This document shows, one piece after another, positions 19,109 through 46,893 of a stretch of DNA of 64,000 bases. The DNA comes from an uncultured Pelagibacteraceae bacterium. GTDB lineage: Bacteria > Pseudomonadota > Alphaproteobacteria > Pelagibacterales > Pelagibacteraceae. Position 1 is the first letter of the stretch, and each line of letters starts with the position of its first letter. The DNA lies in contig CACORJ010000001.1 in NCBI GenBank assembly GCA_902629575.1, positions 1-64,000 of the forward strand, given 5' to 3'. Under the pieces are notes generated by a model. That model saw only the letters and a list, made by a program, of their open reading frames with translations. It had not been told where the DNA came from and did no database searches. The position numbers and the translations under genes are program-made.

Positions 19109-19193
19109 TTTTTTTAGCGGAGTATATATTCTCTATTACAATAAGATACTTATTCTTTTTATAAGTATTTTTAATGACAAATTTAGAGCATTC

Positions 19194-19409
19194 CTATTTT
19201 TTTAAAACACCATATTTACTAAATTTATACCAAGCTCTCTCATGAAAGTAATATAAGAACATTTTTGTTAAAACTTCTATACCTGCGATAGTTCCGGCCC
19301 AATCAAATTTTCCAGTTATTAACCAAGCTATTAAAAAAGTATCTAAACTAGCTATTACTCTCCAGGTTATTGTTTTTGCTAAATGTCTTTTTTTTTCAAC
19401 GTGTTTCAT
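19194..19409 (-). CDS. DUF2061 membrane protein
   Basis: 71 aa: HLAKTITWRVIASLDTFLIAWLITG...IEVLTKMFLYYFHERAWYK. Confidence 0.88.
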   Translation of the reverse strand: MKHVEKKRHLAKTITWRVIASLDTFLIAWLITGKFDWAGTIAGIEVLTKMFLYYFHERAWYKFSKYGVLKK

Positions 19410-19429
19410 AATTGCCTTTCTAAATTAAA

Positions 19430-19702
19430 TTATTTTTTTCTTTTTTTTAGTTCCGCAATTACTTCCTCTATTTTTACATTATTTGCTTCTAAAAACATAA
19501 TCAAATGATAAAAAACATCAGCTGATTCATGAATTTTATTTGAGTTTTGTTCAATAGCTTCTATTAACTCTTGAACTTCCTCCAAAACCTTGTCTTTAGC
19601 AAAATTTTTATCATTCAAAAGTTTATTTGTGTAAGATCCCTCTACTGGATTTTTCTTTCTTTCTCTAGCAAGTAAAATAAGATCTTCCAAAGTTTTAAGC
19701 AT
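19430..19702 (-). CDS. hisE: Phosphoribosyl-ATP pyrophosphatase (start corrected from 19801)
   Basis: MLKTLEDLILLARERKKNPVEGSYTNKLLNDKNFAKDKVLEEVQELIEA...ESADVFYHLIMFLE; the upstream 33 codons overlap hisF out of frame. Confidence 0.93.
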   Translation of the reverse strand: MLKTLEDLILLARERKKNPVEGSYTNKLLNDKNFAKDKVLEEVQELIEAIEQNSNKIHESADVFYHLIMFLEANNVKIEEVIAELKKRKK

Positions 19703-19703
19703 A

Positions 19704-28403: not shown

Positions 28404-29885
28404 TTAATCAATTAACATTTTTTTTATTGCTATATTCCAACCTTTAATTAATTTATTTCTATTGTATTTCTTAATTTTAGGCCTGAACTCTTTATCTTTT
28501 TTCCACAATTTTTTTATATCATTAAAAGATTTAAATAATCCAGATTTATAGCCAGCAAAAAAAGCAACGCCGACGGCGGTTGTTTCTACAATTTTAGGTC
28601 TAATAACTTCTAAGTCTAACAAATCTGATAAAAATTGTGAAAACCAATTGTTCACTGACATTCCCCCATCAATCTTAAGACTTTTGGGTTTTATACCGTC
28701 TTTTTTAAATAAATTTAATAAGTCAAAAGTTTGGTAAGCAACAGATTCTATTGTTGCTCTAACTAATGTTTGCCAATCACTGTCTCCTGTTAATCCTGTG
28801 ATTAAACCTCTTGCGTCTGACTTCCAATGAGGAGCTCCCATACCACTAAATGCTGGAACAATAAAAACACCTTTATTACTCAAAGTAGAATTTAAAATTT
28901 TTTCTGTTTCTTGTGCATTATTAATTACTTTAATTTTATCTCTTAACCACTGAACTCCTGCACCAGCAATAAATATTGAGCCTTCTAACGCGTAAATTGT
29001 TTTGTTACCAATCTTATAACAAATTGTTGTGATTAATTTATTTTTTGAATTAATTTTTTTTTGTCCGGTGTTGATAATTGTAAATGCTCCGGTTCCAAAA
29101 GTGCTTTTAATAGAACCCCTTTCAAAACAATTTTGACCAATAGCTGCTGCTTGTTGGTCACCGAGTACAGCTGATATGGGTATTTCGAGATTTAATATCT
29201 CTTTGCTAGTCAAACCAAAATCATCGACTGAATTCATTACTTTTGGCAATATCTTTTTTGGAATACCTAATTTTTTAATAATTTTATTATCCCACTTATT
29301 ACTATCAATATTATATAGCATTGTTCTACTTGCATTAGTTGCATCTGTTAGGTGTTTTTTACCTGAAGTAAGCTTCCATATTAAAAAAGTATCTACAGTT
29401 CCAAAAAGTAAATTATCGAATTTTAATAGTTTCTTAGAAGACTTAACATTATCTAAAATCCATTTGATCTTAGTAGCTGAAAAATAAGGATCAATGTATA
29501 AACCAGTTTTATTTTTAATAATCTTTTCAAGTCTATTTTTTTTTAGTCTATCACAATAGTTTTGGGTTCTTCTATCTTGCCAGACAATTGCTTTATATAT
29601 GGGTCTGCCTGTTCGTTTGTCCCACATAATTGTTGTTTCTCTTTGATTTGTTATTCCTATACTTATTATCTTACCCTTAAGAAGATTTACTTTTTTGATT
29701 ACATTTTTTAACCCTCTTAAAGTTGTTGACCATATCTCGTTAGGGTCATGTTCAACCCACCCACTTTTGGGGAAATATTGTTTAATTTCACTTTGATATT
29801 TTGAAATTATATTAATTTTCTCATCAAAAAGAATTACTCTTGTGGAAGATGTGCCTTGATCAATAGAAATAATAAATTTTTTCAA
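28404..29885 (-). CDS. glpK: Glycerol kinase
   Basis: FIISIDQGTSSTRVILF, GITNQRETTIMWDKRTGRPIYKAIVWQDRRT, STFGTGAF, KIDGGMSVNNWFSQFLSDLL. Confidence 0.96.
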   Translation of the reverse strand: MKKFIISIDQGTSSTRVILFDEKINIISKYQSEIKQYFPKSGWVEHDPNEIWSTTLRGLKNVIKKVNLLKGKIISIGITNQRETTIMWDKRTGRPIYKAIVWQDRRTQNYCDRLKKNRLEKIIKNKTGLYIDPYFSATKIKWILDNVKSSKKLLKFDNLLFGTVDTFLIWKLTSGKKHLTDATNASRTMLYNIDSNKWDNKIIKKLGIPKKILPKVMNSVDDFGLTSKEILNLEIPISAVLGDQQAAAIGQNCFERGSIKSTFGTGAFTIINTGQKKINSKNKLITTICYKIGNKTIYALEGSIFIAGAGVQWLRDKIKVINNAQETEKILNSTLSNKGVFIVPAFSGMGAPHWKSDARGLITGLTGDSDWQTLVRATIESVAYQTFDLLNLFKKDGIKPKSLKIDGGMSVNNWFSQFLSDLLDLEVIRPKIVETTAVGVAFFAGYKSGLFKSFNDIKKLWKKDKEFRPKIKKYNRNKLIKGWNIAIKKMLID

Positions 29886-29906: not shown

Positions 29907-30494
29907 TTATTCCTTTATAGTTGTCAAATATTCTTTTATTTTTTTAATGGGTAATCCCATAATTGTATCATTGTCCCCTTCAATTTTTGAAAATAACGAT
30001 CTTCCAACTCCTTCTATTTGATATACATTATAGGCGTATAAAGTCTCATCATCAATTTTCTTAAGATATTGTTTAAGGTCTTCTAAAGAAAACTCCTTCA
30101 TTACTAATTTTGCTTTATCTGTGTAGTTCCATATCATTTGTCCGTCTTTAGATATGCAAGCTGAACTTATTAAATAATGAGTTTTATTGTTCAAGGTTTT
30201 TAATATCTCTAGTGCCTCTGCCCTATTATTTGGTTTTGAAATTACAACTCCGTCCAAATCTATGACGCTATCAGCTCCCAGAACTATTTGGTTTTCATAT
30301 TTGGCGCTTATTTTGTTGGCTTTTAACTCAGCAAGATTTTTAGAAATGATTTCTGGCGAAGCATTTTCTTTATTCAAAGACTCTTTAACACTATCTTCAT
30401 CAATGTTGGATGGGACAACATCACATAAAATTCCGTAATTATTCAATATTTCTTTTCTAACTTTACTCTTAGAGGCTAAAATAATTTTTCTCAT
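29907..30494 (-). CDS. maf: Maf-like nucleotide pyrophosphatase
   Basis: ILASKSKVRKEIL, VLGADSVIDLDG, SKPNNRAEALEIL. Confidence 0.94.
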   Translation of the reverse strand: MRKIILASKSKVRKEILNNYGILCDVVPSNIDEDSVKESLNKENASPEIISKNLAELKANKISAKYENQIVLGADSVIDLDGVVISKPNNRAEALEILKTLNNKTHYLISSACISKDGQMIWNYTDKAKLVMKEFSLEDLKQYLKKIDDETLYAYNVYQIEGVGRSLFSKIEGDNDTIMGLPIKKIKEYLTTIKE

Positions 30495-31315
30495 TATTTT
30501 TGTTTGTAAATTTCATGAATTTTTATTACTGAAGCAGCAGTTTCTTCAACTGATTTTCTTGTAACATCAATTGTTGGCCAACCGTATTTTTTAAAAGTTT
30601 TTTTTGCATTATCAATTTCTTTCTGGATATTGTTAATATTAGTATATTTTGTATTTTCAGTTTCTTTTAAAGAGTTCATTCGATTTTTTCTTATATCAAC
30701 CAATCTTTCTGCTTCCGTATTTAAACCAATTATGCAACTTATTTTTGGATTTTCTCTTAAAGTTTTTGGTACAGAATTTTCATTTATTAATGGAATATTA
30801 GAAGTTTTATATCCTTTGTTAGCCAAATAAATAGATGTTGGTGTTTTGCTGGTCCTGCTTACTCCTAATAATACAATATCAGATTTGCTTACCTCATCTA
30901 ACAAATTTCCGTCATCATGATTCATGGTAAATTGAATAGCTTCAATCCTTTGATAATACTCTTCATTTAAAACATGTTGCCCGCTTGGCTCATGAGATGC
31001 TTTTTGATTTAATAATTTTGAAAAACTCAAAATTAAATTTCCTAATACACCAAAACAAGGTAGTCTTTTTTTTTCGCTTTCATTAGCTAAAAATTTTGCA
31101 AGATTGGTATCCACTATCGTATATAGAATTATAGAGTTATTAACTTTTTCAGCACTTTCTAAAATTTTAATAATTTGGTTTTCTGTTCTTGTGAAAGAAT
31201 AAGGGTGTACTTTATACTCTATATTCTTAAATTGAGCTTTTAAAGCCAAGAATATTCTGTCTAAAGTTTCTCCTGTGGAATCAGAAACAAGATAAATTTG
31301 ATAAGTATTACTCAT
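30494..31315 (-). CDS. ppsR: Pyruvate,water dikinase regulatory protein (DUF299/PpsR)
   Basis: IYLVSDSTGETLDRIFLALKAQF, VLLGVSRTSKTPTSIYLANKGYKTSNIPL, VEETAASVI. Confidence 0.96.
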   Translation of the reverse strand: MSNTYQIYLVSDSTGETLDRIFLALKAQFKNIEYKVHPYSFTRTENQIIKILESAEKVNNSIILYTIVDTNLAKFLANESEKKRLPCFGVLGNLILSFSKLLNQKASHEPSGQHVLNEEYYQRIEAIQFTMNHDDGNLLDEVSKSDIVLLGVSRTSKTPTSIYLANKGYKTSNIPLINENSVPKTLRENPKISCIIGLNTEAERLVDIRKNRMNSLKETENTKYTNINNIQKEIDNAKKTFKKYGWPTIDVTRKSVEETAASVIKIHEIYKQK

Positions 31316-31596
31316 GTATAAAATGTTAATATATTTGAATTATTTAACAAAGAATAATTTACTTTAACGTTTTTTTAAAAATTATTGAAAATTTCTAACA
31401 TTATTAACAATAATAAACATGTTTATAAAATTATACATTCTTTGAATAAAAACTAAAATACCCAAATAAGTGAGTAAAAATTATCATTTTTAGATTAAAT
31501 GTTAAGTATAAATAGTTAAAAAGATGTGTGTAAAAATTAATAATCGTAATTAACAGGATATAATACTAATACATACTTATATTATATTTATTTTAT
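31316..31596. other. Candidate chromosomal replication origin (oriC/Cori-type)
   Basis: Largest intergenic gap of the window, very AT-rich, flanked by divergent ppsR(DUF299)/hemE; DnaA-box-like TTTTACACA on minus strand (31527-31535), near-boxes TTATTAACA (31401-31409) and TTATAAACA (minus, 31420-31428), CtrA-like TTAA-N7-TTAA (31364-31378). Confidence 0.7.
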
Positions 31597-32598
31597 ATGA
31601 CACCTATTAACGAAGTAATAATTAATAAAAAAACAAATTTAAATCCTATTTGGATAATGAGACAAGCAGGTAGATATTTGCCTGAATTCAGAGAAATTAG
31701 ATCTAAAAATACAGATTTTATAAAATTATGTTTAAACCCAATTTTATCTACTGAAATTACTCTACAACCATTAAAAAGATTTGATTTTGATGCAGCAATT
31801 ATTTTTTCAGACATATTAATGCTGCCATATGGTTTAAATCAAAATGTAGAATTTAAGAAAAATTATGGTCCTATTTTAGATAAACTTGATTTAGATAAAA
31901 TATCTGAGATGAAAGAAACTGACTTTATTGAAAGAATTAAACAAGTTTATGAAGCTATAAAAAATGTAAGTGATAATAATATTTTAAAAGGTAAAAACAC
32001 TATAGGGTTCGTTGGTGCTCCTTGGACTATATTGGTTTACATGATAAATCAGCAATCTCCTAAGAATCAATTAAAAAAAAATTTTTTCGATAATAAAAAT
32101 TTAATAAATAATGTTTTAACAATCATTGAAAAATTTTTAAAAATTCACATTAAAAATCAAGTTGATAATGGTGCAAATATAATCCAAATATTTGATAGTT
32201 GGGCAGGATTATTAGAAGACAAGGACTTACCATATTTTATATACAACCCAACAATAAAATTAGTAAAATTTGTTCAATCTTTAAATGTTCCTGTTATATG
32301 TTTTCCAAGGAATATAAAAGACTATAAAAAATATTGTGATTTGATTAAACCTGATGCAATTTGTATAGATTATGAAATCGATCCAGAAAAAATAGAAAAA
32401 GAGATTAACATACCTGTTCAGGGAGGCATGGATCCCAAGATATTATTAACTGATAAAGAGACACTAAAAAAAGAGGCAAAAAGATACCTAGATATATTTA
32501 AAGATCATCCTTATATTTTTAATTTAGGACATGGAGTTTTGCCAGAAACAGATCCAAGTATGATGGATTATTTGGTAAAAACGGTAAAAGATTATTAA
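31597..32598 (+). CDS. hemE: Uroporphyrinogen decarboxylase
   Basis: PIWIMRQAGRYLPEFRE, DAAIIFSDILMLPYG, GFVGAPWTI, FNLGHGVLPETDP. Confidence 0.97.
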   Translation: MTPINEVIINKKTNLNPIWIMRQAGRYLPEFREIRSKNTDFIKLCLNPILSTEITLQPLKRFDFDAAIIFSDILMLPYGLNQNVEFKKNYGPILDKLDLDKISEMKETDFIERIKQVYEAIKNVSDNNILKGKNTIGFVGAPWTILVYMINQQSPKNQLKKNFFDNKNLINNVLTIIEKFLKIHIKNQVDNGANIIQIFDSWAGLLEDKDLPYFIYNPTIKLVKFVQSLNVPVICFPRNIKDYKKYCDLIKPDAICIDYEIDPEKIEKEINIPVQGGMDPKILLTDKETLKKEAKRYLDIFKDHPYIFNLGHGVLPETDPSMMDYLVKTVKDY

Positions 32599-34239: not shown

Positions 34240-34266
34240 AATACGCTAAAAAGCCTAAAAAGACTG

Positions 34267-34292
34267 GTGTTTTTGATATGTTTTAAAAACAC
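34267..34292 (+). promoter_or_regulatory. Hairpin candidate in the rho leader
   Basis: GTGTTTTT-N10-AAAAACAC, 8-bp perfect arms in the hemG-rho gap. Confidence 0.4.
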
Positions 34293-34336
34293 AGGAACAC
34301 TCTTGTAATAGTTGTAATTGTATATATATTAGAATT

Positions 34337-34356
34337 ATTATTAAGTCCTTAATAAT
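34337..34356 (+). promoter_or_regulatory. Palindrome/hairpin immediately upstream of rho start codon
   Basis: ATTATTAAG-TC-CTTAATAAT, 9-bp arms, ends 8 nt before the rho ATG (34365). Confidence 0.5.
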
Positions 34357-34364
34357 TAAAAATC

Positions 34365-46714: not shown

Positions 46715-46773
46715 AAAATATTTGACATTAATACACGATAATAGGGGAATTAAGAACTTATAAGACTTTAAAG

Positions 46774-46791
46774 TGTGATATAATTATCACA
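46774..46791. promoter_or_regulatory. Inverted repeat overlapping an extended -10 element upstream of the porin gene
   Basis: TGTGATA-TAAT-TATCACA (7-bp perfect arms) containing TGATATAAT at 46776-46784. Confidence 0.55.
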
Positions 46792-46893
46792 TTATAGAGA
46801 AATAAAGTTAAATTATTTCAAAGAAATAGCTAATTTTCAGTAATTCGTTAAAAAAGCATCATTCATATATGAAAATAACAAAGGAGAAATCTT

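Follow-up and report, generated by a model that had tools for sequence, protein, structure and literature searches.

Structure of the ppsR-hemE Locus

The window, that is, the whole 64-kb stretch of DNA analyzed here, is the initial part of a 208-kb contig from a genome of 1.06 Mb in 27 contigs. Among named organisms, its closest relatives belong to the Pelagibacteraceae (SAR11). The sequence and the list of open reading frames place a spacer of 281 bp (85% AT) at 31316–31596, between the divergent genes ppsR, whose frame starts at 31315 and runs leftward, and hemE, which starts at 31597 and runs rightward. This is the largest intergenic gap of the window if the opening 291 bases of the window are set aside; the second largest, at 46715–46893, measures about 179 bp. 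The region 19109–19703 was rejected as a rival large gap, as it contains a 71-aa ORF and part of another. The dnaA gene is located about 65 kb rightward of the spacer, at about 96.5–97.5 kb of the genome's own contig C1. The original prediction of a replication origin at this site had described the largest, AT-rich gap between divergent ppsR and hemE genes, and this description holds. The names it gave to ppsR, hemE, hemH, hemG, rho, and mnmE were confirmed, maf, parA, and parB fit their families, and all of the motifs it listed are present at the coordinates given. The features of the locus are as follows.

30494–31315, minus strand: ppsR (DUF299, COG1806), left boundary gene (NF003742, E 3.5e-90)
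31316–31596, no strand: putative oriC spacer (261–284 bp at 108 SAR11 loci; the window's largest gap)
31324–31332, minus strand: DnaA-box-like site A, TGTTAATAT here, TGTTAATAA commonest in relatives (conserved alignment block)
31401–31409, plus strand: putative DnaA box B, TTATTAACA (in this block of alignment columns, 64 of 102 spacers have the identical 9-mer and 6 others have TTATTCACA)
31420–31428, minus strand: putative DnaA box C, TTATAAACA, inverted to B (block conserved, sequence variable)
31503–31533, minus strand: array D1–D3, three DnaA-box-like sites that relatives space by about 11 bp (TGTTAATAA, TGTTTATAA, and TGTTNATAA-like; from the alignment)
31537–31545, plus strand: box E, degenerate, TTAATAATC in the window, with TTAATCACC frequent among relatives (from the alignment; TTAATCACC in 30 spacers, 0.3 expected)
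31547–31555, plus strand: box F, TAATTAACA in the window (58 of 102 spacers have an exact TTATNCACA, mostly TTATTCACA)
31560–31571, minus strand: DnaA-trio-like repeat, top strand ATA-ATA-CTA-ATA, bottom strand 3'-TAT TAT GAT TAT-5' (period-3 conservation)
31572–31596, no strand: AT-only or nearly AT-only stretch adjoining the hemE start, presumed to be part of the unwinding element (from the sequence; TATATATA in the sister family)
31597–32598, plus strand: hemE, right boundary gene (TIGR01464, above cut-off)

Constant length of the spacer across the 108 SAR11 loci was rejected as sole proof of an origin because the hemG-rho spacer (34240–34364 in the window), possibly a rho leader, is about equally constant (116–130 bp, n = 11 loci). 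A contig titled as a Flavobacteriaceae MAG (L091) carries a SAR11 ppsR-hemE locus, and the mismatch in the title is likely a binning error. The glpK gene, found between aroE and maf in the window (28404–29885), lies some 400 kb off in the relative G012 (857 kb compared with 1.263 Mb) and is a gene gained by, or moved to, the origin neighborhood.

DnaA Boxes in the Window and Its Relatives

The window's spacer contains TTATTAACA at 31401–31409 on the plus strand, TGTTTATAA at 31420–31428 (TTATAAACA on the minus strand), TGAGTAAAA at 31471–31479, and TGTGTAAAA at 31527–31535 (TTTTACACA on the minus strand). Comparison with dinucleotide shuffles indicates that the cluster is above chance, as expected of an alphaproteobacterial origin of the hemE/COG1806 type. 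Five sites are within one mismatch of TTATNCACA compared with 0.72 in shuffles, and none of 300 shuffles reaches five. Exact matches to TTATN[A/C]ACA number two compared with 0.19 (P 0.013), while TTWTNCACA is matched exactly once compared with 0.03 (P 0.03). Furthermore, boxes B and C are the sole pair of TTATN[A/C]ACA sites less than 300 bp apart in 124 kb of the genome's own contig.

Conservation of the boxes was probed using an aligned comparison set of 102 distinct spacers from the window and its relatives. A count of all 9-mers in this set, made without any preset motif, is topped by TTATTAACA, which is seen 166 times (7.4 expected) and is present in 95 of the 102 spacers; TTATTCACA ranks high as well (66 seen compared with 1.0 expected). 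Over-representation is 23-fold for exact TTATNCACA and 16-fold for TTATN[A/C]ACA, although these ratios overstate the evidence because the relatives are mutually non-independent. A genome-wide pair test in the complete 1.34-Mb genome of a congeneric relative (G012) is free of this flaw: this genome contains 54 exact TTATNCACA sites, and the only pair less than 300 bp apart (1,261,990 and 1,262,117) is inside the spacer. At box position 6, enrichment is seen for A and C but for neither G nor T. The original description of the boxes as degenerate or sparse is accurate for the classical TTATNCACA in the window's species, but it fails when the count is extended to related genomes and to the SAR11 variant TTATN[A/C]ACA.

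Read from ppsR to hemE, the alignment consists of box A, the inverted pair B and C, a poorly conserved middle, the minus-strand array D1–D3, boxes E and F, four bases, and four NTA triplets. Conservation of the box-like motifs in sister genomes had been proposed as a check, and this check comes out in favor of the origin, with the boxes at 31401 and 31420 falling in conserved blocks. The box at 31471 is unconserved in the alignment and was rejected as a conserved element, and the exact box at 31527–31535 is restricted to near relatives, such as L003 and L033. The array D1–D3 is decayed in the window, yet the exact TTTTACACA occupies the D3 position. Boxes E and F are also degenerate in the window's own spacer, with box F having two mismatches to TTATNCACA and three to TTATCCACA, and this counts against reading the spacer as an origin. 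The decay of the window's box F, while an exact TTTTACACA at D3 is common to L003 and L033, indicates that the boxes turn over.

A second strongly conserved word, AATAAGCTTCAATTT, occurs between boxes C and D, and its form AGCTTCAAT is found in 53 of the 102 spacers (0.1 expected). About half of the relatives carry this word, and it is absent from the window's spacer (equivalent position near 31459–31472). Its conservation may partly reflect close kinship of the carrier genomes.

A Tandem-Box and Triplet Module Next to hemE

The strongest conserved module of the spacer, which had not been listed in the original prediction, is located at 31537–31571 and is made up of the tandem boxes (31537–31555) followed by the triplets. 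In the 102-spacer alignment, the A of the four triplets is conserved at 0.98, 1.00, 0.99, and 0.99, and the T at 0.95, 0.92, 0.41, and 0.96. At least three of the four NTA triplets are present in 92 of the 102 spacers, although a score this high is also reached at about 5% of the remaining positions in the AT-rich spacers.

The basal unwinding system (BUS) of B. subtilis and others is composed of DnaA-boxes and DnaA-trios (PMC8287927). A BUS was defined here by a DnaA box (at most two mismatches) within 16 bp of the trios, and by an uninterrupted run of three or more NAN triplets on the strand that is read 3'-5' going away from the box. Exact TTATNCACA is found 4 bp from the trios in 58 of the 102 relatives, and four consecutive triplets are found at 31560–31571 in the window. 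Judged by sequence, the module probably matches the anatomy of a BUS, with 3'-NAT-5' on the bottom strand at the prescribed place. SAR11 shares with the BUS the tandem boxes, the gap (four bases), at least three trinucleotides with a middle adenine on the bottom strand, and the adjoining AT-rich DNA, while the order's sister family also has perfect GAT trios in some members. In contrast to the 3'-GAT-5' trio of the BUS, the main SAR11 genus has mostly 3'-NAT-5', and only about 41% of sequences have a middle adenine in the third triplet. Moreover, of the two boxes, the one closer to the trio is better conserved in SAR11, and the gap between box and trio is not GC-rich.

Persistence of the Spacer When Neighboring Genes Change

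A search for PF03618 (ppsR) gave no match in any of the eight genomes searched of the order's second (sister) family. In this family, maf abuts a spacer of about 270 bp that ends in tandem boxes, trio-like triplets, and TATATATA, followed by hemE. Some of these genomes have four trios (CTA on the top strand) at the same place as the window's triplets; CTACTACTACTA, which comprises four perfect 3'-GAT-5' trios, was found in L216, with a shorter form in L223 and L228, these three genomes representing the two other genera sampled. The converse situation is found in G156, which belongs to the window's family and to another genus. Here, hemE is at 718 kb and, judged by the translated flank, adjoins what reads as hemB. 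The ppsR gene is at 140.5 kb, and a 353-bp spacer separates it from rho. This ppsR-rho spacer contains three TTATAAACA boxes, and the module of E, F, and triplets can be recognized in its sequence AACCCCATTATAAACATGACCTAATAACA. In this genome hemH, like hemE, is far from the origin locus.

Since boxes and triplets persist without ppsR in the sister family and without hemE in G156, it is the spacer DNA itself that is conserved. The original prediction held that synteny carries most of the weight. Synteny is no longer the main support, because boxes, spacer, and trio-like triplets outlast the loss of either flanking gene.

Replication Geometry and the Spacer as the Probable oriC

The local cumulative GC skew of the genome's own contig does not mark the spacer, with a minimum at 66.6 kb. 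Because skew in the window and contig is dominated by operon orientation and has its minimum elsewhere, a complete relative was used. The cumulative GC skew of G012 has a floor at about 1.22–1.30 Mb (minimum 1.291 Mb, maximum 0.616 Mb), which includes the spacer at 1.262 Mb, 29 kb from the raw minimum; the skew check that had been proposed thus comes out in favor of the spacer at a resolution of tens of kb. The best switch in strand-corrected third-position GC skew is at 1.270 Mb, with 1.260–1.265 Mb a close second, and gene orientation has two equally good optima, at 1.2325 and 1.2625 Mb. The skew valley of G037 spans 340–460 kb, and the orientation optimum by gene count is tied at 385 and 424 kb, with the hemE start at about 423.7 kb; the switch in strand-corrected third-position GC skew is not significant in this genome. 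AT skew was uninformative. Skew and orientation estimates resolve only tens of kb, and they agree with the spacer to about ±40 kb in G012 and G037. The partial skew of G156, from the fetched part only, peaks near 780 kb, which places the origin near 174 kb if symmetry of the 1.211-Mb circle is assumed. The ppsR-rho spacer (141 kb) lies near this position, and hemE is distant from it.

Position, synteny, box enrichment, in-register conservation, the period-3 repeat, agreement with the G012 skew floor, and persistence without either neighbor all support the original interpretation, and the ppsR-hemE spacer is very probably the chromosomal origin, oriC (probability roughly 0.93). By analogy with known systems, DnaA would bind the variant boxes TTAT[T/A][A/C]ACA (A–D) and the tandem pair E and F at the hemE end. 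A DnaA filament would then extend from F onto the bottom strand through the triplets at 31560–31571 and open the AT-rich DNA adjoining the hemE start, after which helicases would be loaded and the origin would fire bidirectionally.

A very unlikely alternative is that the spacer is only the divergent promoter region of ppsR and hemE, with the conserved words functioning as promoter or regulator sites, such as TATAAT at 31559–31564 as the –10 element of hemE. Both genes diverge from the spacer, which contains 11 promoter-like sites compared with 4.9 in shuffles; one of the 11 is TTAATA-16-TATAAT, which ends at 31564. However, the conservation of the triplets extends past this hexamer (31568, 31571), 46% of relatives have C as the first base of the hexamer, and the clustered words are DnaA boxes that, with the triplets, persist where ppsR is lacking or rho stands in the place of hemE. 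The spacer may well contain a promoter in addition to the origin.

It is also highly improbable that the true origin lies some tens of kb away, for example near dnaA or at the raw GC-skew minimum, and that the spacer is a DnaA-titrating or regulatory cluster. The broad or tied optima in G012 and G037 would allow such a displacement, but the G012 genome has no close pair of exact TTATNCACA sites outside the spacer, its dnaA (1.199 Mb) is outside the skew floor, and the hemE/ppsR location is that of the origin class-wide.

CtrA Sites and the DnaA Protein

CtrA-binding sites are present in the Caulobacter origin and few or absent in Rickettsiales. The original prediction had also pointed to a CtrA-like full site, TTAACGTTTTTTTAA (TTAA-N7-TTAA type), at 31364–31378. 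This site was rejected, as the motif is not above chance in the window (19 found, 20.5 expected), the site is unconserved in the SAR11 alignment, and a CtrA orthologue was not found in the 41 genomes of the order searched, where the best matches have about 34% identity. The query, the Caulobacter CtrA sequence, found a 52–82% identical match in 39 of 58 genomes sampled across the class (the 58 include the window's own, which has no match). A Caulobacter-like origin at which CtrA represses initiation through 31364–31378 has a single sequence match in its favor and, given the chance count, the lack of conservation, and the low identities, can be dismissed almost completely. Consequently, the Caulobacter-style, CtrA-controlled subtype of the hemE/COG1806 origin is not claimed for this spacer. 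A passage of a survey of the CcrM methyltransferase distribution names SAR11 as an exception, in ambiguous wording (PMC3973325).

Domain IV of DnaA keeps RDHTT. The two residues before this motif are GG in the sister family, E. coli, and B. subtilis but SN or AN in the main SAR11 genus (F[SA]NRDHTT compared with FGGRDHTT in the sister family). The presence of SN or AN correlates with A at box position 6, but the DnaA of G156 has TG and this genome also uses TTATAAACA, and for this reason a link between the helix change and the box variant is only hypothetical. It is tentatively suggested, with the balance of probability against it, that the DnaA code of the main SAR11 genus has shifted to TTAT[T/A][A/C]ACA (A more than the classical C at position 6) alongside the replacement of GG by SN or AN before RDHT in the DNA-binding helix, giving a minimal origin without CtrA control.

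Relation to Known Origins and Significance

The hemE/DUF299 kind of origin is already known: origins between hemE and the COG1806 gene are known in Caulobacter (Cori) and predicted in Rickettsia (PMC1914354). Of 30 other alphaproteobacteria checked, 27 have the hemE/ppsR neighborhood, and the spacer lies between hemE and the COG1806 gene in the window and at the 108 SAR11 loci. The SAR11 spacer shares with the Caulobacter and Rickettsia origins the boundary genes, the divergent layout, an AT-rich spacer, and several DnaA boxes. In contrast, it is shorter (261–284 bp compared with 367–899 bp in the 27 other alphaproteobacteria), its boxes are mostly TTATTAACA rather than TTATNCACA, and it has neither conserved nor above-chance CtrA sites, with no CtrA orthologue found. 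The same 9-mer, TTATTAACA, is a putative DnaA box in Mycoplasma hominis, M. mobile, and M. arthritidis (PMC2751442), which also have AT-rich, reduced genomes, although the Mycoplasma origins belong to an unrelated lineage, are dnaA-linked, and have only one or two boxes.

The literature searched contained no description of a SAR11 origin sequence. What is new, as far as this literature shows, is the base-level anatomy of a SAR11 origin, together with the predominance of the variant box, the trio module, and the retention of the spacer where neighboring genes have changed. SAR11 is among the most abundant bacterial groups of the ocean. Estimates of in situ replication in SAR11 use origin-to-terminus read ratios, for which the position of the terminus is fitted from coverage (PMC9589681), and an origin recognizable at the base level across the order could serve as an anchor for such estimates. 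The SAR11 spacer is also a candidate part for replicating plasmids in a group that is hard to manipulate, and it is a naturally occurring case of an alphaproteobacterial origin that is very compact and lacks CtrA.
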